A stretch of 20,644 bases of DNA from a virus: the IMG/VR virus record IMGVR_UViG_3300042691_022204, positions 1 to 20,644 of that record; one strand, written 5' to 3'. The position numbers and the translations under genes were made by a program. Of the stretch, positions 6,131-20,441 are shown piece after piece. The stretch's first letter is position 1. The number at the start of each line of letters is the position of its first letter. Under the pieces are notes generated by a model, which worked only from the letters and a program-made list of their open reading frames with translations, made no database searches and was not told the origin of the DNA.

Positions 6131-6922
6131 ATGAAACTAGGAATTTCTTATAATTTATTTGATGGCGAAGAACTTTTAGAAGGATCTATAAATTGTATTA
6201 GAAAATATGTAGACTTTATTAGTGTTGTATATCAAACAGTATCAAATTTTGGCAATAAAGCAAATCCAAATTTAGTTGATTATTTAATGAAAATAAAATC
6301 AAATAAATTAATTGATGAGTTATACGAATATATTCCAACTACATTTCATGGAGCTGGTAACGAAATAGAAAAAAGAAATATAGGACTTCAGTTGTCAAGA
6401 AATGTTGGTTGTTCGCACCACATGAGCATAGATGCCGATGAATATTATTTGGGATACGAATTTAAACACGCAAAAGAAAAAATCATAAAAAATGACAACG
6501 ATGCGTCGTTCTGTCCTATTATAAACTATTATAAAACTTGGGAATATATTATTAAAATTACTGAAACAGTATCGTTTCCACTAACTTTTCCTCCGTATGT
6601 ATCTATGATATATAAAATTAAACCAAATAGTCAATTCTTGTCAAAAGGGAAATATGTTGTTTTAATAGATCCAACCAGGAAAATACAACCAATCAATAAT
6701 CCAATTATTTTTGAAAGAAATGAGATACAAATGCATCATGGATCATATATAAGAAATGATATTTCTATTAAATTAATAAATAGTTCAGCAAATAAAAATT
6801 TTAATGAAGAGATTAATACTATAATAGATTATTATAGTTCTTGGAATTATCCAGACCAGGCTCTTTGGGCTGGTAAACCAACTAAATTATATAATGTTGA
6901 AAAAATTCAAAAACAGTTCTAA
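6131..6922 (+). CDS. GT-A fold glycosyltransferase-like protein
   Basis: This 263-residue protein looks like a family 2-type glycosyltransferase. It begins with a short beta strand (KLGISYNLFDGEELLEGSI) of the kind that starts the nucleotide-sugar domain. It carries a DxD-type metal site in HMSIDADEYY (97-106), where GT-A enzymes hold the nucleotide diphosphate through Mn or Mg. The region after it (FPPYVSMIYKI, then MHHGSYIR at about 201-208) fits an acceptor-binding part with a conserved His. No membrane segment is visible, so the enzyme is probably soluble. No Shine-Dalgarno sequence is evident. Donor and acceptor are unknown. Confidence 0.75.
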   Translation: MKLGISYNLFDGEELLEGSINCIRKYVDFISVVYQTVSNFGNKANPNLVDYLMKIKSNKLIDELYEYIPTTFHGAGNEIEKRNIGLQLSRNVGCSHHMSIDADEYYLGYEFKHAKEKIIKNDNDASFCPIINYYKTWEYIIKITETVSFPLTFPPYVSMIYKIKPNSQFLSKGKYVVLIDPTRKIQPINNPIIFERNEIQMHHGSYIRNDISIKLINSSANKNFNEEINTIIDYYSSWNYPDQALWAGKPTKLYNVEKIQKQF

Positions 6923-7022
6923 TACTATGTAAGTGTGAAATAGTTTAAAAAATTTTTTATTTGATACTTGATCTTGTTAGGTTTGTGACTACTATAAAAA
7001 GTACATTAATCGTTTAAAAAAT
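6923..7022 (+). other. AT-rich 100-base gap
   Basis: No gene or RNA is visible in this gap. It contains a 14-base A/T palindrome (6946-6959), too poor in G and C to be a convincing terminator. TTGATC and TACTAT lie 16 bases apart near 6970-6995, a weak sigma-70-like pair. It may start transcription of the genes from 7023, but evidence is thin. Confidence 0.3.
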
Positions 7023-7205
7023 ATGTCAGACCAAGATAAAAAAGATATTCGCAGACAAAACCAGTTTCTTAATAAGAATAAACAGAAACCAAAAATTTCT
7101 GAAGAGCAAAGATATATTTCTAAATCTAAAAAACAACTTAAAAATAAAATAAAAGAAATTCAAGCAGAAGAAATCTGGGAAGACTGGGAACAAGACTTTC
7201 AATGA
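7023..7205 (+). CDS. Small charged hypothetical protein
   Basis: A 60-residue, strongly basic then acidic protein rich in Lys, Gln, Asp and Glu. It reads as one long helix (SKKQLKNKIKEIQAEEIWED at about 35-54), possibly a coiled coil. I recognise no family. No Shine-Dalgarno sequence precedes the ATG. The stop shares ATGA with the start of the next gene, a sign of coupled translation and of both being real. Confidence 0.6.
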   Translation: MSDQDKKDIRRQNQFLNKNKQKPKISEEQRYISKSKKQLKNKIKEIQAEEIWEDWEQDFQ

Positions 7206-7426
7206 AATATATCGAAGAATTGGAATGTGGAGACACATTTTCTTATAAAGATAATATGTATATATTAACTTCTGATTTTAAATCTAACGGAAGTAAATTA
7301 TGCTATTCTTTAGTTAGTGGATTTCCTCAGTGGTTAAACCCAGACACTATTGTATATCATGAGCCAATTTATATTTTAGATTCAAATAATAACACAACAC
7401 CTATTAAGACCACTCCTAAAAAATAA
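7202..7426 (+). CDS. Small conserved-type phage protein, beta-rich
   Basis: A 74-residue protein with alternating hydrophobic residues that suggest a small beta barrel: GDTFSYKDNMYILTSDF (10-26), LCYSLVSGFPQWLNPDTIVY (33-52), then a Thr/Lys-rich tail. From memory, similar small proteins with a 'gene product is set by a displayed value' layout (a 'D-x-F...LTSDF...G...C.SL..G....L.P.T.V' pattern) occur in T4-like phages, without a known function. It overlaps the previous gene by the 4-base ATGA and ends one base before the next gene. Confidence 0.65.
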   Translation: MKYIEELECGDTFSYKDNMYILTSDFKSNGSKLCYSLVSGFPQWLNPDTIVYHEPIYILDSNNNTTPIKTTPKK

Positions 7427-7427
7427 A

Positions 7428-8123
7428 ATGTTAAATTTACTTATAACATGTGTTAATTATTCAGATTATCTATCATATACATTGCCGTATAATGTAACTA
7501 TATTTGATAATATATACATAGTAACAACAGAACAAGACAAAAACACTCATAGAGTTATAAATAAATTAAATTCTATAAAACAAAATATTACAACATTATA
7601 TACTAATATTTTTTTTGAAGATGGCCCGTGGGGAAAAACACATTTCAATAAAGGAGGAGGATTAAACTTTGGATTATCTAATATAGAACACAAAGACTGG
7701 ATTATTATAGGAGATACAGATATTATTTATCCATCAAATATAAATAATCAATTACCAAATCTAGAAATAGACTGTATGCATGGTATGTATAGATATAAGA
7801 TTAATAAAAGTGAAGATATATTAGAGGCTATAAAAAGCTATGAATCAGAGGAAGTGTATAACACATACCTAAATGATGCTATTATTCAATACGGCCAACG
7901 CAAACACGGAATAATTGGATATTGTCAATTATTTAATTTTAATTCAAGCTGTATTAAAAATGGGTTTTCATACCCTCAAGGACCAACTGCTTTTGCTGTA
8001 GACACACAATTCTCTCGTGGATATTTTCCAAGAAAATATAGAAGACTTCATAAAAACTATTGTTTACATTTAGGAGAAACATGTAAAAATTGGAAAGGAA
8101 GAGTTACAAAACAATGGGACTAA
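7428..8123 (+). CDS. GT-A fold glycosyltransferase-like protein
   Basis: A 231-residue probable glycosyltransferase. It starts with a beta strand (NLLITCVNYSDYL), has NKGGGLNFGL (74-83), which suits the loop that shapes the donor pocket, and a DxD metal site in IIIGDTDIIYP (92-102). Near the end, YCLHLGETCKNWKGR (at about 212-226) gives a conserved His and Trp, as found near the acceptor site of similar proteins. It starts one base after the previous stop. Its last 10 bases overlap the next gene. Sugar and acceptor are unknown. Confidence 0.75.
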   Translation: MLNLLITCVNYSDYLSYTLPYNVTIFDNIYIVTTEQDKNTHRVINKLNSIKQNITTLYTNIFFEDGPWGKTHFNKGGGLNFGLSNIEHKDWIIIGDTDIIYPSNINNQLPNLEIDCMHGMYRYKINKSEDILEAIKSYESEEVYNTYLNDAIIQYGQRKHGIIGYCQLFNFNSSCIKNGFSYPQGPTAFAVDTQFSRGYFPRKYRRLHKNYCLHLGETCKNWKGRVTKQWD

Positions 8124-8353
8124 TAAATAAACTTCTAACTTTTATAAATTCATTATTTTGGCATATTTATAACGGTTCTCCAAAAAGTAGTCAAAAATTA
8201 ATAAATAAAAGATTTTCTATATGCGTAGAATGCGATTCCTATGATTCTATAAATAAACAATGTCTACAGTGTGGTTGTAATATAAATCAAGAAAAAATTT
8301 TACTCAATAAATTAGCTTGGGCAGATCAAAAATGTCCTTTAAATAAATGGTGA
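8114..8353 (+). CDS. Small Cys-rich, probable zinc-binding protein
   Basis: A 79-residue protein with six cysteines: C37, C40, C50, C53, C55 and C74 (CVEC, then CLQCGC, then KCPLNKW). These probably bind one or two zinc ions. Before them comes a hydrophobic stretch (LLTFINSLFWHIYNG, 7-21) that could be an amphipathic or membrane-touching helix. The LNKLAWADQKCP segment (64-75) is, from memory, typical of a small phage family found beside glycosyltransferases. The ATG at 8114 is preferred to an in-frame TTG at 8090; it overlaps the previous gene by 10 bases. Function unknown; a scaffold or regulator for neighbouring enzymes is possible but only by context. Confidence 0.7.
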   Translation: MGLINKLLTFINSLFWHIYNGSPKSSQKLINKRFSICVECDSYDSINKQCLQCGCNINQEKILLNKLAWADQKCPLNKW

Positions 8354-8357
8354 GAAT

Positions 8358-8900
8358 ATGATCGTTAATACCAAAACTCAGAAACATAATAAGTTTGTGC
8401 AAATAAAAGGAGACTTATTCGATTATATACAAAATAGAATAAAAGCAGGAAATAATGGATCCTCAGTTATAGTTCCTCATGTGTGCAATAATATTGATTT
8501 ATTTGGCGCTGGATTCGCTACTGCTGTTTCCAAACACTACCCTGTGGTCAAAGAAAATTACCATCTTTTGGGAAAAAATTTTTTACGATCTAATCTAGGA
8601 TATGTTCAATATGTTAAAACTTTAGAAGATAAAAATTATGGACACAATTTAGTATTTGCTAATATGATAGCGCAAAATTCTACAATATCTAAAACTAATC
8701 CAAGACCGTTAAATTATAAATATCTGATTCAATGTATGATTGATATTGATAAATTTATTAAATCTAAATATCAAGAACAAAAAATAGAAATACATATGCC
8801 AAAATTTGGATGTGGATTAGCTGGAGGAAACTGGAATTTTATTAAAGACCTAATAGATGACGTTTGGTACGAACATAATATATACGTATATCAAATATGA
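8358..8900 (+). CDS. Macro domain protein, ALC1/Poa1-like
   Basis: A 180-residue macro domain covering nearly the whole protein. Macro domains bind ADP-ribose and often remove it, or its phosphate, from proteins, DNA, RNA or small molecules. Signature parts are GDLF (18-21), VPHVCNNIDLFGAGFA (39-54), where the Asn and the glycine loop hold ADP-ribose, FANMIAQ (100-106), and PKFGCGLAGGNW (148-159), the phosphate-binding loop. The last motif and its tryptophan place it with the ALC1/TARG1/DarG-Poa1 branch rather than the MacroD branch. The lysine that serves catalysis in TARG1 has no obvious counterpart after FANMIAQ. It has an SD-like GGTGAG before ATG 8358. It could undo ADP-ribosylation used in defence, or recycle ADP-ribose phosphate. 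Confidence 0.88.
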   Translation: MIVNTKTQKHNKFVQIKGDLFDYIQNRIKAGNNGSSVIVPHVCNNIDLFGAGFATAVSKHYPVVKENYHLLGKNFLRSNLGYVQYVKTLEDKNYGHNLVFANMIAQNSTISKTNPRPLNYKYLIQCMIDIDKFIKSKYQEQKIEIHMPKFGCGLAGGNWNFIKDLIDDVWYEHNIYVYQI

Positions 8901-9526
8901 TTAATTACTATTGTCTTCATCATTCACCAGCAACCGAAAGAAAACATTATCTAAGGGATTTATTTAATAGACAAAATCTTCAGATTCAATGGATAGAAGA
9001 TTTTCTTCCATATTGTGATGATGTTATTAATTATCCTAAAATTCACTGCGCACATGCTGCGAAAAATGAGATACTAAATAATGCAGAAATATCCTTGTGT
9101 CTAAAGCATAATTTAGTTCTTAAAAAGATAGGTGAATTAAATAGCGAATATGGTATGATATTCGAAGATGATATTAAAGAACCATCATGGAGTATTAATG
9201 AATATATACCAGAAATAATAAAACAATTTGAAGAAATTAACGGAGAAATATTATGGATCGGATCTGATCCATCAATGGAAATTCATACAAAAGATAAAAT
9301 AAAAATTCTTTCAAATAGTCAGACAAAATCTAGATTCTCTCATTGTTATCTGATACACTCATCTGTCGCAAAAAAAGTATTAAATTTTTATTGTAACATA
9401 ATGGCTCCTCCAGATTGGCAATGGAATTTTACAATTGATTATTTTAAATTAAAAAGCTGTTGGTGTTATCCGTCAATATTTCAAAGAACATCTATAAAAG
9501 AAATACCATCGTTACTAAGAGAATAA
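8897..9526 (+). CDS. GT25-like glycosyltransferase
   Basis: A 209-residue protein resembling family 25 (LPS) glycosyltransferases. ERKHYLRDLF (14-23) matches the family opening in which R-x-x-x-L follows the first strand. AEISLCLKHNLVLKKI (63-78) is the 'S-x-x-x-S-H' helix region, and YGMIFEDD (85-92) carries the acidic metal-binding EDD. Further on, FSHCYLIHSSVAKKVL matches the 'aY.is...A..ll' segment. Family members add galactose or glucose to LPS cores and other glycans. It overlaps the macro domain gene by 4 bases (ATGA). No signal peptide or membrane segment is visible. The acceptor is unknown. Confidence 0.8.
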   Translation: MINYYCLHHSPATERKHYLRDLFNRQNLQIQWIEDFLPYCDDVINYPKIHCAHAAKNEILNNAEISLCLKHNLVLKKIGELNSEYGMIFEDDIKEPSWSINEYIPEIIKQFEEINGEILWIGSDPSMEIHTKDKIKILSNSQTKSRFSHCYLIHSSVAKKVLNFYCNIMAPPDWQWNFTIDYFKLKSCWCYPSIFQRTSIKEIPSLLRE

Positions 9527-9527
9527 T

Positions 9528-10088
9528 ATGAATCATATTTATAATGAACCTCAATTTGGAGAAAATTGGTTTACATATCCTAATTTTTATAAAAGTTGTG
9601 TAGAACGCTTTGGAGATAATAGTATTTTTGTAGAAGTTGGATCATGGAAAGGAAAAAGTAGCGCATTTTTAGCCGTAGAAATTATTAACTCTAATAAAGA
9701 TATTAAACTATATTGCGTTGATACATGGAAAGGTTCTCCAGAACACACAAACGATAATTTTATTATAAATGACACTCTTTATGATTTATTTTTACACAAT
9801 ATTAAAGACTTGACATCAGTAATAACGCCAGTTAGAAGCAATTCAGTTGATGCTTCTAAAATTTTTGACAATGAATCGTTAGATATGATTTTTATTGATG
9901 CTTGTCATGAATATGAAGATGTAAAACAAGATATCGAAACGTGGTATCCAAAAGTTAAAAAGGGAGGAATCATAGCTGGACATGATTATCATGATCCGTG
10001 GAATGGAGTAGTCAGGGCTGTTGATGAGTTTTTTATTAATAAAAAAGTAGAAAAATCTGAAGCTTGTTGGATACATATTAAAGAATAA
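9528..10088 (+). CDS. Class I SAM-dependent methyltransferase (Methyltransf_24 type)
   Basis: A 186-residue methyltransferase with all expected motifs: VEVGSWKGKSS (35-45, motif I), CVDTWKGSPE (63-72, acidic end of beta 2), LDMIFIDACHEYEDVKQDI (118-136, motif IV with a His and Tyr) and GGIIAGHDY (146-154). The GHDY with the Asp pair in FIDACHEY suggests a metal-assisted O-methyltransferase like those of cell-wall and sugar pathways. Spacing to the neighbours is one base on either side, so it belongs to the glycosyltransferase operon. It differs in sequence from the methyltransferase at 5537, so the two probably modify different positions. Confidence 0.88.
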   Translation: MNHIYNEPQFGENWFTYPNFYKSCVERFGDNSIFVEVGSWKGKSSAFLAVEIINSNKDIKLYCVDTWKGSPEHTNDNFIINDTLYDLFLHNIKDLTSVITPVRSNSVDASKIFDNESLDMIFIDACHEYEDVKQDIETWYPKVKKGGIIAGHDYHDPWNGVVRAVDEFFINKKVEKSEACWIHIKE

Positions 10089-10807
10089 TGAATACATTAT
10101 CGATAACTCTATATAATAGACCGAAATATACGCAAATAGTATTAGACCATCTAGACTTATGCTATAATATTGATAAATATAATATTTTTATATATTGTGA
10201 ACCTAATAATAAAGAAGTAATAGAATTAGCTAAAAAATTTAGACCACAACAAACACAAGTTACTATTAATCCTACAAGACTTGGTTGCAATAAAAATATT
10301 TATCAAGCATTAAATTATGGATTATTAATTAATGATTTTCATATTCATTTAGAAGACGATACAGTACCAGGTAAAGATTTTTTATTATACTGTGAATGGT
10401 GTCGTGAATATTATAAAAACACAGATGAGATTTTTTCAGTATCTGGTTATGTTAACTCTAATAATAATATTCATCAGTTTATAGAACAAAATAATGACTT
10501 TAATAAAATAAGCACAAGAAATTGGTTTACTCCTTGGGGTTGGGCAACATGGAAACACAAATGGCTTTCTGTTAGAGATTTTATAACTCCATTTTTAAAT
10601 ACATCTTCTGTTAGCTGGGATTTAATTTTACATCAGTCTATTAAAAATAAAAAAGAGTGTTTTCCTATGGTTTCTAGAATTCAAAATATAGGAGCAGAAA
10701 ATGGTTCTTTTTGCCCTAGTGCTGATTGGCATAGAAAAAACCAATATAATGAATACTGGATAGAAACAACAAAAAAATATCAGATAAATTTCATAGAAAG
10801 CATATAA
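10088..10807 (+). CDS. GT2-like glycosyltransferase
   Basis: A 239-residue GT-A protein. It opens with the typical ITLYNRPKYTQIVLDHL (6-22), where a strand leads into a helix after an 'N-R-P' turn. The strand HIHLEDDTVPGKDFL (85-99) carries the acidic EDD. NWFTPWGWATWKHKW (about 145-159) is a strong feature of GT2-like proteins with a 'P.GW..W..rW' acceptor region. The start codon shares a base with the previous stop (TAATG), and its own stop does the same with the next gene. It is probably cytoplasmic; substrate unknown. Confidence 0.85.
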   Translation: MNTLSITLYNRPKYTQIVLDHLDLCYNIDKYNIFIYCEPNNKEVIELAKKFRPQQTQVTINPTRLGCNKNIYQALNYGLLINDFHIHLEDDTVPGKDFLLYCEWCREYYKNTDEIFSVSGYVNSNNNIHQFIEQNNDFNKISTRNWFTPWGWATWKHKWLSVRDFITPFLNTSSVSWDLILHQSIKNKKECFPMVSRIQNIGAENGSFCPSADWHRKNQYNEYWIETTKKYQINFIESI

Positions 10808-11673
10808 TGAGATATAATATAGAAAATATTTTATTTCCACAAGAACCATACACACATAGCTATGTAGCTGCTATTAATCATGGTTTAAATTTTATAACAA
10901 ATAAAAAAATATTATTTTTAGGGTTGTGTAGAGATGTAGAAGATGTTATAGAAATTAATTTAGAAAAAATAATTACTATAGGAAGTCGATTTTCTGATTA
11001 TAAAATTATATTATTTGAAAACGATTCTAAAGATAAAACAACAACAATAATCAATAATTTAATAAATAAAAATCCTAATATTGAATTATTATCAACAACA
11101 AATAATCGTCAAAAATATGGATCATCTCAAGATAAAGAAAGAATAGTTGCTTTAGCCGAATATAGAAATAATCTTAAAAACTATGCCAAAAATAAATACC
11201 CTGACTATGATTTTATTTGCGTTATAGATACAGATTTTTTAGATTTTAGTATAAATGGATTTTTTAATAGCTTCGGATATCTGGCTCAAGATGATAGGGT
11301 AGGAGCAATGTCTGGATATAGTTATAGAATAATGAATTGTATTTATGATAATAAACAGAGCTTATGGAATTATGATTCCTGGGCATATAGAGAATATTGG
11401 TGGAATAATTGGCAAACCCAAGAAAAAACAGAATTTGTTAATTATGACAGAATGATTTGGTATGGGTTTTGTATTCCTCCTATTGGTTTAACTCCTAAGC
11501 AAGTCAATAGTTCGTTTGGTGGCTGTTGCATTTATAAATCTATATACTACTATAGTGATGTGAACTATGATAGTTTTGATTGCGAACATGTTTGTTTTCA
11601 TTATGATTTATATTCAAAAAATAATAATTTTAAATTATTTGTTAATCCATCTCAAACAATGTTAGTAAAATGA
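10807..11673 (+). CDS. Glycosyltransferase-like protein, CAP59/Anp1-type
   Basis: A 288-residue protein that resembles the fungal-type Anp1/CAP59 mannosyltransferase fold. It has ILFLGLCRDVEDVI (35-48), then FENDSKDKTTTII (70-82), which is the 'E-N-D-S-x-D-x-T' element, an arginine-rich helix (LAEYRNNL, 116-123) and the metal site VIDTDF (139-144). The C-terminal half is rich in Trp, Tyr and Cys (YDSWAYREYWWNNW; SFGGCCIYK). This class of fold is unusual in phages, and I judge it by motif order, so the exact family is uncertain. It overlaps the next gene by ATGA. Confidence 0.72.
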   Translation: MRYNIENILFPQEPYTHSYVAAINHGLNFITNKKILFLGLCRDVEDVIEINLEKIITIGSRFSDYKIILFENDSKDKTTTIINNLINKNPNIELLSTTNNRQKYGSSQDKERIVALAEYRNNLKNYAKNKYPDYDFICVIDTDFLDFSINGFFNSFGYLAQDDRVGAMSGYSYRIMNCIYDNKQSLWNYDSWAYREYWWNNWQTQEKTEFVNYDRMIWYGFCIPPIGLTPKQVNSSFGGCCIYKSIYYYSDVNYDSFDCEHVCFHYDLYSKNNNFKLFVNPSQTMLVK

Positions 11674-12200
11674 ATAGACTAAAAAATCAAAGAGTTTATC
11701 TTGCTGGTGCTATGGATAGAGTGGCGGATCGTGGTACAGGATGGAGAGATAATATAACTCCATTTTTAGAAAACTTAGGAATAGTTGTTTTTAATCCTAT
11801 TAGTAAACCAACAGATATAGGATTAGAAGATAGTGACACTCATCAGATTAAAACTAGATTAAAGAGTATGGGACGATATGATGAATTGTCTGCTATGATG
11901 AAAACTATACGCTCTGTTGATCTAAGGCTAGTAGATATTAGCGATTTTATGATTGTTAATTTAAATTTAGATCATTATGCTTGTGGAACATGGGAGGAGC
12001 TTTTTCTCTGTAATAGGTCCAAAAAACCAATACTTATCTATATTGAACAAGGAATATCCAACATCCCGGATTGGTTATTTGGCACTATTCCACACCAATG
12101 GTTTTTTTCAAAATGGTCTGATTTACAAAATTACCTACTACATATAAATACAGATAAACATATAGATCTCTATAATAGATGGAAATTTTTTAACATATAA
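11670..12200 (+). CDS. Nucleoside 2-deoxyribosyltransferase-like protein
   Basis: A 176-residue protein with the pattern of the nucleoside 2-deoxyribosyltransferase superfamily, enzymes that swap the base on 2'-deoxynucleosides or hydrolyse the bond. The strand and loop RVYLAGAMDR (8-17) is the family's 'iYLAGp' start. VDISDFMIVNL (88-98) is the central strand with its Asp pair. CGTWEELFLC (105-114) holds the glutamates in the position of the catalytic nucleophile. ILIYIE (121-126) gives the last strand. It starts in the ATGA at the end of a glycosyltransferase gene. The unusually long first loop (about 20-80) may set substrate choice. A role in nucleotide salvage or in making a modified nucleotide is plausible. 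Confidence 0.78.
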   Translation: MNRLKNQRVYLAGAMDRVADRGTGWRDNITPFLENLGIVVFNPISKPTDIGLEDSDTHQIKTRLKSMGRYDELSAMMKTIRSVDLRLVDISDFMIVNLNLDHYACGTWEELFLCNRSKKPILIYIEQGISNIPDWLFGTIPHQWFFSKWSDLQNYLLHINTDKHIDLYNRWKFFNI

Positions 12201-12225
12201 AATTTTTATAAAAATTAAATAGATT

Positions 12226-12948
12226 ATGATAGAATTACCAAATATTACTTTCGTTTCTGTAGACGGTAGACAAAGTTCAAATAAAAATTTTCATCATTAC
12301 ACAGAATTTGGGCATTTATATTGGTTAATTAAATATGCTGAATATGCTAATAAATATTTTAAATTTGGAAGATATCTTATATTAACTCCAGATGCCGATA
12401 AATATAAACATGATTTTATTGAGTTTGAAAAAACAGTATCTTTTGGATATAAAGGATACAGTCATTTTATGATTTTTGGACTAAAATCTCACATAACAAC
12501 TGATTTTTGTTTGGTTTATCAAAGTGATGGATCAATAATAAATCCCAGTCTTTGGGATAATTCGTTCCTTAACTATGATTATATAGGGGCTCCATGGGGA
12601 TTAAATGCTCCAATACCAAAAAGATTTAAGGCTTATAGAAACTATTCTTGTTGTGTTGGTAACGGAGGCTTTAGTTTACGTAGTAAAAAATTACTAGATA
12701 TTGGATCTACTATACCATTCTTTAATGGTAATGAAGATCTTTTTTTATTACTGAAAAATAAACAATATTTATTAGATAATGGTATTAAAATACCAGACTG
12801 TGATTTTGCCAGAAAATTTTCTATAGAATATCCTATTGATACTAATCATACAACAGAAAATACATTTGGTTTTCATAAACCAAAATATGACGATATGACA
12901 TTTTTAGACTCATATAGAACTAAAATATTAACAGAATTAAATTTATAA
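12226..12948 (+). CDS. DUF5672-type glycosyltransferase-like protein
   Basis: A 240-residue protein with the hallmarks of DUF5672, a group found near polysaccharide genes and thought to be glycosyltransferases. Key parts are LVYQSDGSIIN (96-106), the strand with an acidic metal site, WDNSFLNYDYIGAPW (110-124), VGNGGFSLRSKKLL (144-157) and NEDLFLLL (169-176). The last two resemble the 'GNGG.SLR' and 'ED' of the wider GT-A class. An FGFHK motif (about 214-218) closes the domain. Its start follows a 25-base gap with no SD. It separates the deoxyribosyltransferase-like gene from GMP reductase. Confidence 0.83.
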   Translation: MIELPNITFVSVDGRQSSNKNFHHYTEFGHLYWLIKYAEYANKYFKFGRYLILTPDADKYKHDFIEFEKTVSFGYKGYSHFMIFGLKSHITTDFCLVYQSDGSIINPSLWDNSFLNYDYIGAPWGLNAPIPKRFKAYRNYSCCVGNGGFSLRSKKLLDIGSTIPFFNGNEDLFLLLKNKQYLLDNGIKIPDCDFARKFSIEYPIDTNHTTENTFGFHKPKYDDMTFLDSYRTKILTELNL

Positions 12949-12956
12949 TATAAAAT

Positions 12957-14093
12957 ATGCAAAAAATAATTAATGAAACAAAGCTAGATTTCGATGATGT
13001 CTTAATAAGACCAAAAAGATCCACACTAAATAGTCGATCAGAAGTTTGTATTCAGCGAGAATTTAAATTTAAATATTCTAATCGAAAATTATTAGCGTCT
13101 CCAATTATGGTAGCTAATATGGATACTGTTGGAACAATGCAAATGGCTAAATCAATAGGCAGGCACCAAGCCATAACTTGCTTACATAAGCACTATTCCG
13201 CACAAGAATATATTGATTTTTATAAACAAGATTTTTATGATAAAGAAACTAATCTAATATATAGAGATTTAATATTTTATTCTATAGGCACTAGCGATAA
13301 AGACTTCGACAAAGCTATTACTGTATTTGGTGCGATCCAACATCACCACCCATATCCTAATATTTGTTTAGATGTAGCCAATGGATATACAGAACAGTTT
13401 GTCAAAAAAGCATCATCTCTAAGAAGACTTTTTCCTAACTCTATAATTATGGCTGGTAATGTTGTTACTCCAGAAATGACAGAAGAATTAATTATTCATG
13501 GCGGCGTAGATATAGTCAAGGTTGGTATAGGGTCAGGCAGTGTTTGTACCACTCGTTTAAAAACTGGAGTAGGATATCCTCAATTAAGCGCCGTAATGGA
13601 GTGTGCTGATGCCGCACATGGCCTTGGTGGTCATATATGTAGCGATGGTGGTTGTAAAGTAGTCGGAGATATTGCGAAAGCTCTTGGTGGTAATAGTGAT
13701 TTTGTAATGCTAGGAGGTATGTTTGCTGGGGTAGATGAGTGCGAAGGAGAATGGCAGTATGAATATTTAGGAGGTCAAAATACTGATTACTTATTTTGGC
13801 AACCATTTGATCCAGGAAATAATTCTCCAAAAAGAAAAGTATCATTAAAATACTATGGAATGAGCAGTAGAAACGCTATGAATAAACATCATAATGGGGT
13901 GGCAGACTATAGAACTGACGAAGGTAAGTGTGTAATAGTACCATACAAAGGAACAGCGCAAGAAATTATAATGGATATTTATGGAGGATTAAGAAGCTCG
14001 TGTACTTACATCGGAGCTAATAATATTAAAGACTTTGGCAAAAAAACAACATTTATACAAGTTAATAACACACATAATAAAATATATGAATAA
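12957..14093 (+). CDS. guaC: GMP reductase
   Basis: A 378-residue enzyme of the IMPDH/GMPR family, closest to GMP reductase. GuaC converts GMP to IMP with NADPH and release of ammonia. Matches to bacterial GuaC run along the full length: FDDVLIRPKRSTLNSR (12-27), NMDTVGTM (54-61), the LHKHYS element (76-81), GNVVTPEM (167-174), the active-site loop VGIGSGSVCTTRLKTGVGYP (189-208) with catalytic C197, SDGGC (229-233), FVMLGGM (249-255) and the YGMSS flap (300-304). It lacks the CBS domains of IMP dehydrogenase. Between about 264 and 296 it has roughly 20 more residues than E. coli GuaC (347 residues). A phage-borne guaC is unusual and sits here inside a glycosyltransferase cluster. Confidence 0.94.
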   Translation: MQKIINETKLDFDDVLIRPKRSTLNSRSEVCIQREFKFKYSNRKLLASPIMVANMDTVGTMQMAKSIGRHQAITCLHKHYSAQEYIDFYKQDFYDKETNLIYRDLIFYSIGTSDKDFDKAITVFGAIQHHHPYPNICLDVANGYTEQFVKKASSLRRLFPNSIIMAGNVVTPEMTEELIIHGGVDIVKVGIGSGSVCTTRLKTGVGYPQLSAVMECADAAHGLGGHICSDGGCKVVGDIAKALGGNSDFVMLGGMFAGVDECEGEWQYEYLGGQNTDYLFWQPFDPGNNSPKRKVSLKYYGMSSRNAMNKHHNGVADYRTDEGKCVIVPYKGTAQEIIMDIYGGLRSSCTYIGANNIKDFGKKTTFIQVNNTHNKIYE

Positions 14094-15153
14094 ATTAAAT
14101 TTAATGTGTCCTATTGGACATACTGGATACGGAATAACATCTTTTAATATTTATAAATCTTTAAGAAAAAATGTTGATATAACATTATTTCCGATAGGAC
14201 AATCTATAATAGATGATCAGTCTTTTGCTAATAATATTATGGAAGATGTTAATAAACAATCTTTTTTTAATAGATCAGTACAATGCTTTAAAATATGGCA
14301 TCAATTTGATTTGGCTTCTAGAGTAGGAAATGGCAAATTCGGAGCCTTAACATTTTTTGAAACAGATAAATTAAAACCTATCGAAATTACTATGATTAAT
14401 AATTTAGATTATATCTTCGTTGCTTCTCAATGGGCAAAGACTATTTTAGAAAATAATGGTATTAAAATACCTATTTATATTAGTAGATTGGGTGTTGATC
14501 CAGAAATTTTTAATGATAATGTAAATAATACAGTTAAAAAAGAAAATTCATATGTATTTCTAAATATTGGAAAATGGGAAATTAGAAAAGGTCACGATAT
14601 TTTAGTAGAGTTATTTAATCAAGCGTTCAATAAAGAAGACAATGTAGAATTATGGATGCTAAATAACAATCCTTTTCTTAATGAAAATGAAACTAAAGTA
14701 TGGGTAGATCTATATAAAAATAGTAAATTAGGAGATAAAATTAGAATTTTACCAAGAATTGATAGTCATAAAAATTTAGCTAAGCTAATAGCCTTGAGTG
14801 ATTGTGGAATATTTCCTGCCAGAGCAGAAGGATGGAATAATGAAGTACCAGAAATGTTCGCTCTAAATAAGCCAGTTATTTTGACTAACTATTCGGCCCA
14901 TACTGAATATGCCAATAAACACAATGCATATTTAATAGATATCTCTAATCTATGTCCCGCCATAGATGATAAATTTTTCGATGGATATGGAAATTGGGCC
15001 GATTTTTCCGATGATCAATACGATCAGGCGATATCTCATATGAGATATGTGTATAATAATAATATTAAAACTAACTCAAAAGGATTAGAGACCGCAAAAG
15101 AATTGACATGGGATAATACAGCAAAATCTATACTTCAAATTATTAAAGAGTAA
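14086..15153 (+). CDS. GT4-type glycosyltransferase (GT-B fold)
   Basis: A 355-residue glycosyltransferase of the GT-B class, unlike the GT-A enzymes before it. The N-terminal acceptor half begins CPIGHTGYG (8-16). The donor half starts VFLNIGKWEIRKGHDILVE (157-175), the family's 'G....RKG.D.li.A' element. PARAEGWNNEVPEMFALNKP (244-263) contains the E-x7-E pair (E248, E256) that binds the nucleotide sugar. ATG 14086 is chosen because it gives an 8-base overlap with guaC; an in-frame ATG further upstream would add 17 residues not typical of the family. Such enzymes are retaining transferases, often adding glucose, mannose or GlcNAc. It ends the block of sugar enzymes. Confidence 0.88.
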   Translation: MNKLNLMCPIGHTGYGITSFNIYKSLRKNVDITLFPIGQSIIDDQSFANNIMEDVNKQSFFNRSVQCFKIWHQFDLASRVGNGKFGALTFFETDKLKPIEITMINNLDYIFVASQWAKTILENNGIKIPIYISRLGVDPEIFNDNVNNTVKKENSYVFLNIGKWEIRKGHDILVELFNQAFNKEDNVELWMLNNNPFLNENETKVWVDLYKNSKLGDKIRILPRIDSHKNLAKLIALSDCGIFPARAEGWNNEVPEMFALNKPVILTNYSAHTEYANKHNAYLIDISNLCPAIDDKFFDGYGNWADFSDDQYDQAISHMRYVYNNNIKTNSKGLETAKELTWDNTAKSILQIIKE

Positions 15154-16639: not shown

Positions 16640-17290
16640 ATGATACCATCTATTGGTAAGCAAAAGATACTCTATAAAGATCATTCTAATATTCAATTTG
16701 AATCTCTGGATTTTTATTTGAATTTATCACAAAAAATTATTGCTAAAATAGGTCCAACCTTTTTTAGTGGGCTATCTAAAGAAATGTTACAAAATGAAGA
16801 CGCTATTTCTTTTGTTGCTAATGCTATAATGATGGGAGATTGGAGATGGGAAAAGGAAAATAAGGAAGAATCAAAAACTAATAAAAATTTATATTCCTAT
16901 AGAAATCAATGTGCTATTTGGGCAATCAAAACATATATCACCAAGCAATATAAAAATAAACATAGCAGAAAAAAGATAAATATTGATTGCTCTTTAAATT
17001 ATGGAGACGGTGACGATCTACAAATAGAAACTATTATAGAAGATAAGTCTCAACAAAATCCTTTAGATATTATTTGTGAAAAAGAAGATAAAAAAATTAA
17101 AACACAACTAATAAATGATTTATTAGGATCCGATATTTTGTCTGACAAACAAAAAGATTATATTAAATTGTATTATTTTGAGAATATGACCTTAGAAAAA
17201 ATTGGAAATAAATATAATATCACAAGAGAAGCAGTAAGACAAAGTATTAAATCAAGCATTTCTAAAATTAAACAACTGGTTAGTTCATGA
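16640..17290 (+). CDS. Late transcription sigma factor, gp55-like
   Basis: A 216-residue sigma-70-family protein. Residues about 52-105 (EDAISFVANAIMMGDWRWEK, then YRNQCAIWAIKTYITKQ) look like the region 2 of T4 gp55, which binds the RNA polymerase coiled coil and the -10 late box TATAAATA. Residues 165-214 (LSDKQKDYIKLYYFENMTLE, then KIGNKYNITREAVRQSI) form a region 4 helix-turn-helix with the usual 'TLEEIG..Y.iTRE.VRQ' pattern. T4 gp55 is shorter (185 residues) and has no conventional region 4, so this protein could also read a -35 element. A good SD (AGGA, 16631-16634) precedes it. It leads a coupled operon ending with the DeoC-like gene. Confidence 0.87.
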   Translation: MIPSIGKQKILYKDHSNIQFESLDFYLNLSQKIIAKIGPTFFSGLSKEMLQNEDAISFVANAIMMGDWRWEKENKEESKTNKNLYSYRNQCAIWAIKTYITKQYKNKHSRKKINIDCSLNYGDGDDLQIETIIEDKSQQNPLDIICEKEDKKIKTQLINDLLGSDILSDKQKDYIKLYYFENMTLEKIGNKYNITREAVRQSIKSSISKIKQLVSS

Positions 17291-17715
17291 ATAAATTGTA
17301 TGTATTTAACAATATTTTAACTGTTGACACAAAAACTGAAACCAACTGGGTTTTATCATCAGACAAATACCATATTCATTTTCCTGTATTTGAAATATCT
17401 CATCCAAGATATTTATATAATGAAACTAGAATGAATATAAAAAATTTATTTAAAAAAGATTCAATACAATTTATTGAAGAAATTATGGTTTCTTTTATTG
17501 ATATTCAAAATGAATTTTTATTAGAATATATAAAAGAATTAAAATCAGAAATTTTTAATTTAGATAAAGATCTTTTTTTATTATCTTCAATTATTTTAGC
17601 CGAAAAGATAGAATCTACACAATTTTGGAATAAATTTAATTATGAGATTAATCTTACAAAACCTGATATACAAACTACAATTATAGATTATTGCATACAA
17701 AAAAGCATAGTATGA
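17287..17715 (+). CDS. Hypothetical protein
   Basis: A 142-residue protein of unknown function. The N-terminal third is beta-like (KLYVFNNILTVDT, then ISHPRYLYNETR) and the rest is helical, with repeated Phe-Ile-Glu-Glu and Leu-rich turns and no membrane segment. It has two cysteines only near the end. It begins with the ATGA at the end of the sigma factor gene, and ends the same way in the next, so it is surely translated with them. A partner of the sigma factor or of ClpP-like protease is possible by context alone. Confidence 0.65.
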   Translation: MNKLYVFNNILTVDTKTETNWVLSSDKYHIHFPVFEISHPRYLYNETRMNIKNLFKKDSIQFIEEIMVSFIDIQNEFLLEYIKELKSEIFNLDKDLFLLSSIILAEKIESTQFWNKFNYEINLTKPDIQTTIIDYCIQKSIV

Positions 17716-18107
17716 AATACTTTAAAAAATTTTTTCAAAAACAAAAACAAGACGAACCAACAATATCATCACAATCTAATGAAACATTTATCGATGTAAT
17801 TATATCATTAAATAAAAATCTAGAAGTAGATATTTCTTTATATCTTGATTGTAATTATAAAAAAGCTAATATAGACTTAGTTGATTATATTTTAATATGT
17901 TCTAAATTTTTAAATTTTGATGAAAATAAACTAAAAACACAAATGATAAACATATTAGACAATCAAATTAAAAATGAAGATAATGAATTATTCATAAATG
18001 GCTTAGTGTCAATATTAAAAAACGACAGATTGTCAATAAATAATAAAGATAATTTTTATATTCAACCATCCCAAGTATTTATAAAACATATTCATGAACA
18101 TCAATGA
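17712..18107 (+). CDS. Hypothetical protein
   Basis: A 131-residue protein that I do not recognise. It begins with a basic helix (MKYFKKFFQKQKQDE) and continues with a helical region rich in Asn, Asp and Leu (FIDVIISLNKNLEVDISLYL). The second half has the alternation of a helical bundle (LKTQMINILDNQIKNEDNEL). The ATG at 17712 is preferred to the TTG at 17691, because it makes the usual ATGA overlap with the previous gene. It overlaps the next gene by 14 bases. Very AT-rich, like its neighbours. No function can be proposed. Confidence 0.62.
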   Translation: MKYFKKFFQKQKQDEPTISSQSNETFIDVIISLNKNLEVDISLYLDCNYKKANIDLVDYILICSKFLNFDENKLKTQMINILDNQIKNEDNELFINGLVSILKNDRLSINNKDNFYIQPSQVFIKHIHEHQ

Positions 18108-18522
18108 ACACATTATAGTTTGGGAAAAATGGAAAGACCCTTTTGGTTTTGATAATATAGAATCTATTGATGCTTCATATAACGATGATCATTATAACGA
18201 TAATGAGCAGCCAATAGAACAAAATATAAAAAAAATCAAATGTCAATTGATATCTACTCCATTAGGAATTATACCATTTAATGAAACAATTTCATCTAGT
18301 GATATTTTCAATTTTTGGACGGGTCACTCTAATTTTGCATTAACTAGAATTATTTCTTCAATTATTGAAGATACTCCTGGTGTTGAAACACTAAATATAT
18401 TTACTAAATATAGGTTCAGGATTGGTATAGGCAAAGCCTTTTCTGACTCATTAGTAATGAGAGAAATAAATAAAAATGTTTATGATTATTTAGAAGAAAT
18501 GAAAGATAATTATGTCAAATAA
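18094..18522 (+). CDS. Conserved T4-like phage protein, unknown function
   Basis: A 142-residue protein. Residues about 52-116 (KCQLISTPLGIIPFNETISS, then DIFNFWTGHSNFALTRIISS and GVETLNIFTKYRFRIGIGKA) form a compact domain that I recall as recurrent in T4-like phages, where it has no assigned function. It has the 'TP.G..P...' strand, the 'NFW.GH.NF..T' helix and the 'GVE.L...T.YRFRI..GK' strand pair. The N-terminal residues (KWKDPFGFDNIESIDASYND) are acidic. It overlaps the genes on both sides (14 and 11 bases), in the middle of the sigma factor operon. Confidence 0.7.
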   Translation: MNINEHIIVWEKWKDPFGFDNIESIDASYNDDHYNDNEQPIEQNIKKIKCQLISTPLGIIPFNETISSSDIFNFWTGHSNFALTRIISSIIEDTPGVETLNIFTKYRFRIGIGKAFSDSLVMREINKNVYDYLEEMKDNYVK

Positions 18523-19192
18523 TAAAGATTATGATAATGACTTATCAAATATTCATATTCATAATGTAGATCTAAAAAATAGAGAAATATATCTTCATTC
18601 GTATATTTCTGAAAATGATGAGGAACCTGGAGTAGACTATAGATCAGCAATAATTTTTGAAAAAAATATTAGATATCTAAATACATTATCTATAGAACCA
18701 ATATTAATTCATATGCATCTCCCTGGAGGTATGTGGTCCGATTGTTTGGGTATTTATGATGCTATCAAGTTTTCTAAATCTAAAACTATTTTATTAGCTT
18801 ATGGTAGCGTAGAATCTGCTAGTAGTGTTATTTTACAAGCAGCAGATCTAAGAATTTTAATGCCAAATACTAATGTGCTTATTCATTATGGCTCTTTCAG
18901 TATTAATGAAGAACACAGCAAGGCAGCTGCTAGTAGTGTTCAGTGGAATGAAAGAGAATGTGATAAAATGGTAGATATTTTTACAGAAAAATGTTGCATA
19001 AGTGATATAGCTAAAAATAAAAATTGGAAAAAAATGATGGCTAAAAAACATATTATCTCTCAATTAGCCAATAAATGCGACTGGATTCTTACGGCATCAG
19101 AAGCTGTCGAATATAATTTTGCTGATGGTGTATTTGGTAGTAAGAGATTTAACAACATTGAAGAACTAAAAAATATAGTCAAGAAAAAATGA
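18512..19192 (+). CDS. ClpP-like serine protease
   Basis: A 226-residue protease of the ClpP/crotonase fold (family S14). The catalytic triad is intact: S102 in YGSVESASSV, H125 in LIHYGS and D190 in KCDWILTASEAVEY, the Asp before the 'A-E-A-x-E-Y' helix. HMHLPGGMWSD (67-77) is the strand with the glycine turn, and PNTNVLIH (118-125) leads into the His. ClpP normally forms a barrel of two heptamers and takes unfolded protein from an AAA+ partner. No ClpX or ClpA-type gene is seen here. In phages ClpP-like proteins may serve as head-maturation proteases or join the host Clp system. It overlaps the DeoC-like gene by ATGA and the preceding gene by 11 bases. The fold is firm, the role open. Confidence 0.9.
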   Translation: MSNNKDYDNDLSNIHIHNVDLKNREIYLHSYISENDEEPGVDYRSAIIFEKNIRYLNTLSIEPILIHMHLPGGMWSDCLGIYDAIKFSKSKTILLAYGSVESASSVILQAADLRILMPNTNVLIHYGSFSINEEHSKAAASSVQWNERECDKMVDIFTEKCCISDIAKNKNWKKMMAKKHIISQLANKCDWILTASEAVEYNFADGVFGSKRFNNIEELKNIVKKK

Positions 19193-19842
19193 GTTATATT
19201 GAATATGCTTTTTATGAGTTAGATTATAATGATCAAGAGGCTAAACAAGCTATAGAAAATGCCATAGCATATTCTGTTGATTGTATTTGCGTGCCATTCG
19301 CATATACCAAATACTGTAAAACTCTTATAAAAGATAATAAAATTAAAATTGCTAATGCTATAGACTATCCATTAGGTTTATTAGATTCAAAAACCAGAAA
19401 AGAAGCAATAATTAATGCGATAGATAATGGAGCTGAAAAAATTTGTATTGTTTTACAAAATAATTATCTCAATTTAAAAAAATACGATAAAATACGACAA
19501 GATATTAAATTAGCTTATGATATATGCTCAGAGCGAAACATATCTATATCGTATTATCTTGAATACAGGATATTTACTCACCAGTCTCTAATTAAAGCGT
19601 GTAATATATTGATGGAAACCCCGGTTGATACAGTATATGTTTCTACTGGGTATATGTTAGATAATGTAGAAGATAATATTATTGCTAGTGTTTTATTAAG
19701 AGAAAAAACCGGTATTAAGACAATATTTAGTACAAATATTTGGACAAAAAAACATGTTGAATTATTAATTAAAAACAAAATTGACTATTTAAGATTTTCG
19801 CATATTAGTAGTCTATCCTTATATAAATCTCATATCTCTTAA
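19189..19842 (+). CDS. DeoC-like TIM-barrel protein lacking catalytic residues
   Basis: A 217-residue protein clearly built like deoxyribose-phosphate aldolase. It matches in order: CVPFAYTKYCKTL (34-46), ANAIDYPLGLLDSKTRKEAI (55-74), NGAEKICIVL (80-89) and VDTVYVSTGY (146-155). DeoC makes a Schiff base with a lysine in the 'FVKTSTG' strand; here the lysine is Tyr150. The activating lysine of the next strand appears as Ile179, and the Asp of the 'GADEVD' element is Cys86. So it probably is not an aldolase but has a new or regulatory job. It starts in the ATGA at the end of the ClpP-like gene and closes the sigma factor operon. It could bind a sugar phosphate or the sigma or ClpP proteins. Confidence 0.82.
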   Translation: MSYIEYAFYELDYNDQEAKQAIENAIAYSVDCICVPFAYTKYCKTLIKDNKIKIANAIDYPLGLLDSKTRKEAIINAIDNGAEKICIVLQNNYLNLKKYDKIRQDIKLAYDICSERNISISYYLEYRIFTHQSLIKACNILMETPVDTVYVSTGYMLDNVEDNIIASVLLREKTGIKTIFSTNIWTKKHVELLIKNKIDYLRFSHISSLSLYKSHIS

Positions 19843-19916: not shown

Positions 19917-20441
19917 ATGGCAATTCAACAAGTAAACGGTAGTGTTGTTACAAAATCTTCAACAAACAATAATGGCGGATCAGTATTAAATGGCGGCTCT
20001 ACAGCTGAATTACAAAGCGTTGATTTAGGTTATTCTAATGTTGGTGTTTTTGGTTCATCTGTTATTGATGGCACAAACACAGACAAAGCCTTATCAGCTG
20101 GTACTTTTTCATATTCTAATCAAAATCCAGTAGCAAAGAGATTAACCAACACACTTTCTGGAGTTAATAATTCATATTTACAGAGCGGAGCTTCTGTTCC
20201 TGGTAATGTTCGTAGTATACATAAACTTGAGGTTCTAAGAACACGCAAACTTACTACGGCTATTAGAGCTGGTGATTGGAATATTTATTCTGGTCAATGG
20301 GCTACAGAACCTTCTGTTGTTGTAGATACATTAGTATCAGATGATGCAGCATCTCCATCAAGAAATATGCCTGGAGAACTGGTATACAAAACCGGAGCAC
20401 CAGTACCTGTTCAAGATGATTATAAACCAAAAACTAATTAA
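19917..20441 (+). CDS. Probable virion-associated protein, Ser/Gly/Asn-rich
   Basis: A 174-residue protein rich in Ser, Gly, Asn, Val and Thr, with almost no cysteine and a low charge in its first half (SVVTKSSTNNNGGSVLNGGS). A central part (GVFGSSVIDGTNTDKALSAG; KLEVLRTRKLTTAIRAGDWN) looks beta-structured, and the end is proline-rich and hydrophilic. This composition is common in fibre, decoration or neck proteins of phage virions, but I recognise no family. A strong SD (AGGAG) and a terminator-like hairpin after the gene suggest an abundant, separately transcribed product. Virion role is inferred. Confidence 0.65.
   Translation: MAIQQVNGSVVTKSSTNNNGGSVLNGGSTAELQSVDLGYSNVGVFGSSVIDGTNTDKALSAGTFSYSNQNPVAKRLTNTLSGVNNSYLQSGASVPGNVRSIHKLEVLRTRKLTTAIRAGDWNIYSGQWATEPSVVVDTLVSDDAASPSRNMPGELVYKTGAPVPVQDDYKPKTN

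Follow-up and report, generated by a model that had tools for sequence, protein, structure and literature searches.

Few class I aldolases have been studied as thoroughly as DeoC/DERA (TIGR00126, PF01791, EC 4.1.2.4), which is also popular in enzyme design. The window, by which we mean the whole stretch of DNA analysed here, is a virus record of 20,644 bases. At 19189..19842 on the + strand it encodes a protein of 217 aa which, judged by its sequence, a structural model and alignments, has the DeoC fold and is without the lysines of a class I aldolase. This raises the question of what a phage does with a DERA barrel that has lost the residues for which the barrel is known. A clade in nature that has replaced both lysines and rebuilt the pocket face would reveal further capabilities of this barrel, and the family described below supplies no fewer than 99 diverse sequences that could be screened for function. 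We found no paper on a lysine-less phage DeoC in the literature searched, whose coverage leaves out most subscription papers. The terms 'DeoC' and 'aldolase' have no occurrences in the main text of PMC7674155, PMC7824862 and PMC12363816.

Homology, fold and relatives of the DeoC-like protein

In the list of open reading frames of the window the DeoC-like gene is intact and starts with an ATG, which overlaps the TGA stop of a ClpP-like gene (ATGA). A phmmer comparison related its product to PDB 3ngj with an E-value of 3.9e-14, and a profile-profile search matched it to DeoC with an E-value of 5.6e-22. The match to TIGR00126 (E 2.1e-21, 76.3 bits) lies under the equivalog cut-off of 117.3. This curated cut-off (117.3 bits) was exceeded in none of the 12 phage records, whereas 10 of the 14 control genomes exceeded it. 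Searched alone, the window protein gave no match in Pfam-A and nothing usable in PHROGs.

The AlphaFold2 model of the protein (mf9e5502129fd) has a mean pLDDT of 95.7. Foldseek aligned it to 3ngj with an E-value of 4.4e-16 and VIA superimposed it on an L. brevis DERA with Z 26.1 and an rmsd of 2.0 over 209 aligned residues. By pLDDT, Foldseek and VIA together the model has the DERA-type TIM-barrel fold. The matches of the model in BFVD were weak, the best having E 1e-6, TM 0.65 and 12% identity. The window ORF is a true DeoC homologue and the homology is far beyond chance. The original prediction had called the DeoC fold plain, and TIGR00126, phmmer, the AlphaFold2 model, Foldseek and VIA all agree with this.

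A single-sequence search of the viral contigs with the window protein found no relative. The family was reached through its neighbours instead, using 69 viral loci with a ClpP-like gene and 80 with a GMP reductase. One of 69 representatives (L010) was dropped, leaving an alignment of 68 members (A1). A search with A1 returned 171 encoding relatives, and 80 of these 171 loci were used. In total we collected 214 loci, many of them on overlapping contigs, which represent 99 distinct sequences including the window copy. The ORF is unbroken in the 99 distinct relatives; the one broken copy (L097) is cut at a contig end and was excluded. At L097:15688-16389 the DeoC-like gene is divided between two strands, apparently an artefact of assembly. 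Each of the 68 A1 members has a TIGR00126 match (best E 7.3e-25), only 15 of the 68 match Pfam DeoC at E-values up to 1, and no PHROG matches more than one of the 68.

The members of the family belong to a large group of uncultured water phages. Scanning a genome collection of 84,980 species with the family pattern gave no relative, a negative result that is limited by the pattern itself. Matches of isolate phages to P0001 and to an L012 member were few and weak, and the one in a 735-kb phage proved to be an intact DeoC; no member of the family was recognised among the isolate phages, nor any cultured member of the phage group that carries it among the isolate phages searched. Matches to Listeria, Enterococcus and Staphylococcus phages are assumed to be ordinary host-type DeoCs.

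Phages also carry DeoCs of the ordinary kind. The 735-kb phage LR756501 has a DeoC with both lysines intact (L151:4704-5519), and ordinary DeoCs on viral contigs kept both lysines in 28 of 28 control loci, a count that is biased for the part fetched with one of the two search patterns, as this pattern contained the second lysine. For 26 of the 28 loci the lysines were read from the motif printout, for L293 from FKTNTG and KIKASGG, and for L294 from having the length and score of L293. Both lysines are likewise present in all ten rows of the DeoC alignment A3. These intact viral-contig DeoCs, LR756501 included, resemble our family in being DeoC folds carried by phages but differ from it in retaining both lysines. 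The DeoC-like family is monophyletic against 14 DeoC rows with support of 100/100 on a stem of 2.1 changes per column, and the LR756501 DeoC groups with the bacterial DeoCs. On the sequences compared, the family is a single phage-only clade, separate from the sampled bacterial DeoCs, as far as we searched.

Residues at the catalytic positions of DERA

For E. coli DERA we follow the roles of Lys167, Lys201 and Asp102 as given in PMC8403123. Both the pairwise phmmer alignments and the profile-profile alignment pair the Schiff-base Lys167 with Tyr150 (codon at 19636..19638, + strand) and Asp102 with Cys86 (19444..19446, + strand). By the profile-profile alignment the second lysine, Lys201, corresponds to Ile179 (19723..19725, + strand). 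The spacing of the two positions agrees with this: from Tyr150 to Ile179 there are 29 residues, and the same lysine-to-lysine distance occurs in 8 of 10 ordinary DeoCs, the other two having 34 and 39. Unlike the profile alignment, pairwise phmmer alignments to 8qps and 5h91 place Lys177 on the second lysine. We rejected this candidate, as profile and spacing favour Ile179, and read the pairing as an alignment slip because the column holds Lys in just 14 of the 99 relatives. The window protein has neither of the two DERA lysines nor the catalytic aspartate.

The three replacements are not equally typical of the family. Position 150 is Y in 58 of the 99 distinct sequences, F in 23 and L in 9, and position 179 is I in 86 and V in 7; Lys occurs at neither position in any of them. 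Position 86 is D in 57, E in 22, N in 13 and S in 3, so that D or E is found in 79 and Asp, Glu or Asn in 92 of the 99, and Cys solely in the window copy. Since the lysines are absent in 99 of 99 sequences and 92 of 99 have Asp, Glu or Asn at position 86, the lysine losses characterise the clade, which is not true of the aspartate loss. The proposals that the Schiff-base lysine had become Tyr150 and the second lysine Ile179 are thus borne out, the latter against the pairwise phmmer result. For Cys86 in place of the catalytic aspartate the alignments agree as far as the window copy is concerned, but not for the family. The original prediction had also named conservation in phage relatives as a check: position 150 is mostly Tyr and never Lys, and Cys86 is a peculiarity of the window copy (1 of 99).

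The window copy is unusual at other conserved points as well. Besides Cys86 it departs from the family at Ser121, Val151 and Thr182, and it has Lys for Arg97. It falls in a branch of 12, none of which has Arg at 121.

Other parts of the DERA site are retained to differing degrees. The family keeps the Ser-Thr-Gly loop; an acid stands at position 5 in 98 of 99 sequences, and R or K at position 121 in 82 of 99. In E. coli DERA the phosphate-binding loops comprise Gly171, Lys172, Gly205 and the Ser238 region, according to PMC8403123. The Gly-Gly pair of DERA is Gly-Asn in the family and Thr-Asn in the window copy, the position of Arg207 is Trp in the family, and the C-terminal Gly-x-Ser-Ser loop is largely lost, in a region that is hard to align. 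As aligned here, the phosphate residues of DERA are kept in part only.

In summary of its standing against DeoC/DERA, the family is alike in its full-length fold (Z 26), in matching TIGR00126 in 68 of 68 members, and in keeping the Ser-Thr-Gly loop, the acid at position 5, Glu125 and often an acid at 86. It is unlike DeoC/DERA in being without both lysines (99/99), in scoring below the curated cut-off, in its new near-invariant residues on the catalytic face, in its linkage to ClpP and in being confined to phages as far as searched.

Selection, the conserved face and the operon

The dN/dS ratio of close pairs had a median of 0.065 and a maximum of 0.156 (24 of 25 pairs used). The DeoC-like gene is under strong purifying selection. 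Placed on the model, the 30 most conserved positions comprised 17 residues of beta-alpha loops and 7 in the opening turn of the helix that follows. Of the other six, 4 were in the remaining parts of helices and 2 in strands, and alpha-beta loops contributed none. Conservation is higher in beta-alpha than in alpha-beta loops (Mann-Whitney p 2.8e-6, to be taken as a guide only because alignment positions are not independent). Conservation is shown to gather in the loops after the strands, which is the site of the DERA active site; the location of the pocket was deduced from the strand order of the model. The near-invariant residues specific to the family include Asp59, Arg70, NRKYDKxRxD at 96-105, Tyr126-Arg127, Asp158, Asp162-Asn163, Asn183 and Trp185, and the conserved motifs on the catalytic face are NRKYDK, LEYR, D158..DN and GN.W.

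Six genes of the window run head to tail with overlaps, all on the + strand. The operon is headed by a sigma-70-family factor (16640..17290), identified by family matches and found in 197 of 197 testable loci. It is followed by two small genes, encoding a 142-aa protein (17287..17715, found in 90 of 200 testable loci) and a 132-aa protein (17709..18107, longest ORF from 17691; 177 of 200). Upstream of the ClpP-like gene lies a second gene for a 142-aa protein (18094..18522), which was present in 208 of 208 testable loci and has the family consensus motifs FNFWxGHTNF and VETLDIFTRYRFR. This protein (18094-18522) matched no family, and none of its fold matches is confident: its model has a pLDDT of 79.5, the best Foldseek match is weak (E 0.016) and the best VIA match has Z 7.9 over 68 aligned residues with an rmsd of 2.1. 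The gene directly before the DeoC-like gene encodes a ClpP-like serine protease (18512..19192, by family matches), whose stop overlaps the DeoC-like start. The DeoC-like gene is the last of this sigma-factor/ClpP operon. The next downstream gene (19917..20441, + strand) has its own AGGAG before the start and was found in 80 of 83 testable loci; its 174-aa product gave no family match.

The position of the DeoC-like gene is fixed. The ClpP-like gene adjoins it upstream, within 120 nt, in all 99 distinct relatives, and is its immediate upstream neighbour in 209 of 209 testable loci. For the search with the DeoC-like alignment the count was 78 of 78 testable loci, L195 being too short. Ser102, His125 and Asp190 of the ClpP-like protein, which we take to be its catalytic triad, are each present in 96 of 96 aligned sequences. 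Two loci of a distant relative (L142:2787-3515 and L143:12083-12811) have a ClpP-like gene followed directly by the downstream genes and no DeoC-like gene, so that an insertion or loss could be placed on the tree. Phage ClpP genes as such were already known, as PMC7824862 reports.

PHROGs labels the neighbouring ClpP as a head maturation protease. The 159-kb contig G006 weakens this assignment: there the operon lies at 48 kb, far from the terminase and the likely major head protein (phrog_2522, E 4e-4), both of which map to about 126-134 kb. With the head genes ~80 kb away and a 495-aa gene beside the head gene, the ClpP is probably not the head protease. The 495-aa gene (L267:16042-17526) has no PHROGs assignment and, in its middle, only weak sub-threshold Pfam matches, and is possibly the real head protease with scaffold. 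Profiles of T4-type capsid, protease and portal had no match in 11 phage records, nor in the controls, so that they carry no information here.

Possible functions of the protein

We consider it highly probable that the DeoC-like protein is a repurposed protein that is not a class I aldolase. As far as can be judged from sequence, it cannot be a class I aldolase that works by the known mechanism. That the lysines are lost and the protein is nevertheless strongly preserved after a protease gene suggests that the former enzyme fold now probably serves a new purpose. As to the kind of purpose, we lean towards the explanation that a phage-only branch of the DeoC fold has abandoned Schiff-base chemistry and rebuilt its catalytic face. 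The rebuilt face would comprise Asp59, Arg70, Arg97-Lys98-Tyr99-Asp100-Lys101, Glu125-Tyr126-Arg127, Asp158, Asp162-Asn163, Asn183 and Trp185, with the Ser-Thr-Gly loop kept. Because new charged residues have gathered on the former catalytic face, we find it likeliest that a site for a small anionic ligand has been rebuilt there; the conserved arginines and lysines might hold a sugar phosphate or nucleotide, which would be either converted by acid-base chemistry or sensed. That this face carries a ligand site, be it of an enzyme or of a sensor, seems to us slightly better than an even chance.

Several points run contrary to this explanation. An interface for a partner on the catalytic face would yield the same pattern of conservation, and conservation of the catalytic face is common among barrels anyway. 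The phosphate residues of DERA are partly kept, and the window copy deviates at the four positions given above. The original prediction saw in the protein a repurposed binding or regulatory protein. The clade-wide loss of the lysines, the fixed place, purifying selection and the new residues of the face uphold the first part, while 'binding or regulatory' is one remaining reading: a new catalytic activity of this face would account for the conserved charged residues no less well. The family is similar to pseudoenzymes (PMC10211241) in that the fold is kept and the catalytic residues are lost. It differs from them in its new conserved polar face, which may point to another enzyme rather than a dead one.

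The main rival, to which we give a minor but appreciable share of belief, is that the protein works together with the phage ClpP-like protease, as an adaptor, a subunit that chooses substrates or a regulator, and docks via the conserved face on ClpP or on the substrate. Such a role was absent from the original prediction and is suggested by the constant ClpP neighbour, in 99 of 99 distinct relatives and with overlapping genes in the window. The invariance of the presumed protease triad is in keeping with it, as is the fact that jumbo phages encode ClpP and ClpS-type adaptors (PMC7824862). However, the sigma factor (197/197) and the 142-aa protein (208/208) are equally conserved, so the adjacency of ClpP may be due to inheritance of the whole operon, and the ClpP of L142 and L143, present where the DeoC-like gene is missing, does not need it. 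Partnership is compatible with the ligand site and both can be true. A combination, in which the DeoC barrel became a ligand-sensing or new enzyme partner of phage ClpP and links proteolysis in the course of infection to a metabolite, strikes us as rather unlikely. The fixed link to phage ClpP with its presumed triad intact does make a role in host takeover or protein processing testable. If the barrel were instead a mere building block of a virion or assembly protein, which we think improbable, the PHROGs name of the neighbouring ClpP and the conservation of the next downstream gene (80/83) would fit. The distance of ~80 kb to the head protein and terminase in G006, where ClpP is probably not the head protease, argues against it, and invariant charged residues on a single face are more in line with a site than with a contact in a shell.

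A lysine reaching the pocket from another strand had been named in the original prediction as a finding that would count against it, and the model offers candidates in part: Lys98 (94/99) and Lys101 (98/99) are near-invariant and appear to lie on the catalytic face, at the start of the helix after strand 4. A Schiff-base aldolase whose lysine has moved to another loop (Lys98, Lys101, or Lys177 in the window copy) could also draw on the polar residues of DERA that are partly kept (acid at 5, D/E at 86, R/K at 121) and on the pairwise phmmer placement of Lys177. Yet in the model Lys98 and Lys101 would sit off the strands of the barrel core, and position 177 fails on its rarity of Lys and on profile and spacing, so that we regard a moved lysine as quite improbable. 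That a host deoC was captured and the gene is now its decaying remnant is scarcely credible. The missing catalytic residues and the extra departures of the window copy would be expected of such a remnant, but decay is excluded by the selection data (median dN/dS 0.065), and the unbroken ORF in 99 distinct relatives, with L097 at a contig end as the one broken copy, and the fixed position speak against it too.

Genes of nucleotide and sugar metabolism were also seen in these phages. In G006 a dCMP deaminase and a ribonucleotide reductase lie ~7 kb after the DeoC-like gene, and L263:8479-12319 of the same contig holds a run of genes that, judged by eye alone, resemble those for a sugar isomerase, a transaldolase-like protein, a GHMP kinase, a phosphatase and an epimerase; these genes are perhaps a heptose or surface-sugar pathway. 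The window itself has a long run of glycosyltransferase- and methyltransferase-like genes (6131-15153), a phrog_335 'phosphatase' gene (8358-8900) and a deoxyribosyltransferase-like gene (11670-12200). At 12957-14093 it encodes a GMP reductase of purine salvage (NF003470, 472.9 bits against a cut-off of 397), which has 318 relatives in viral contigs and is widespread in these phages.
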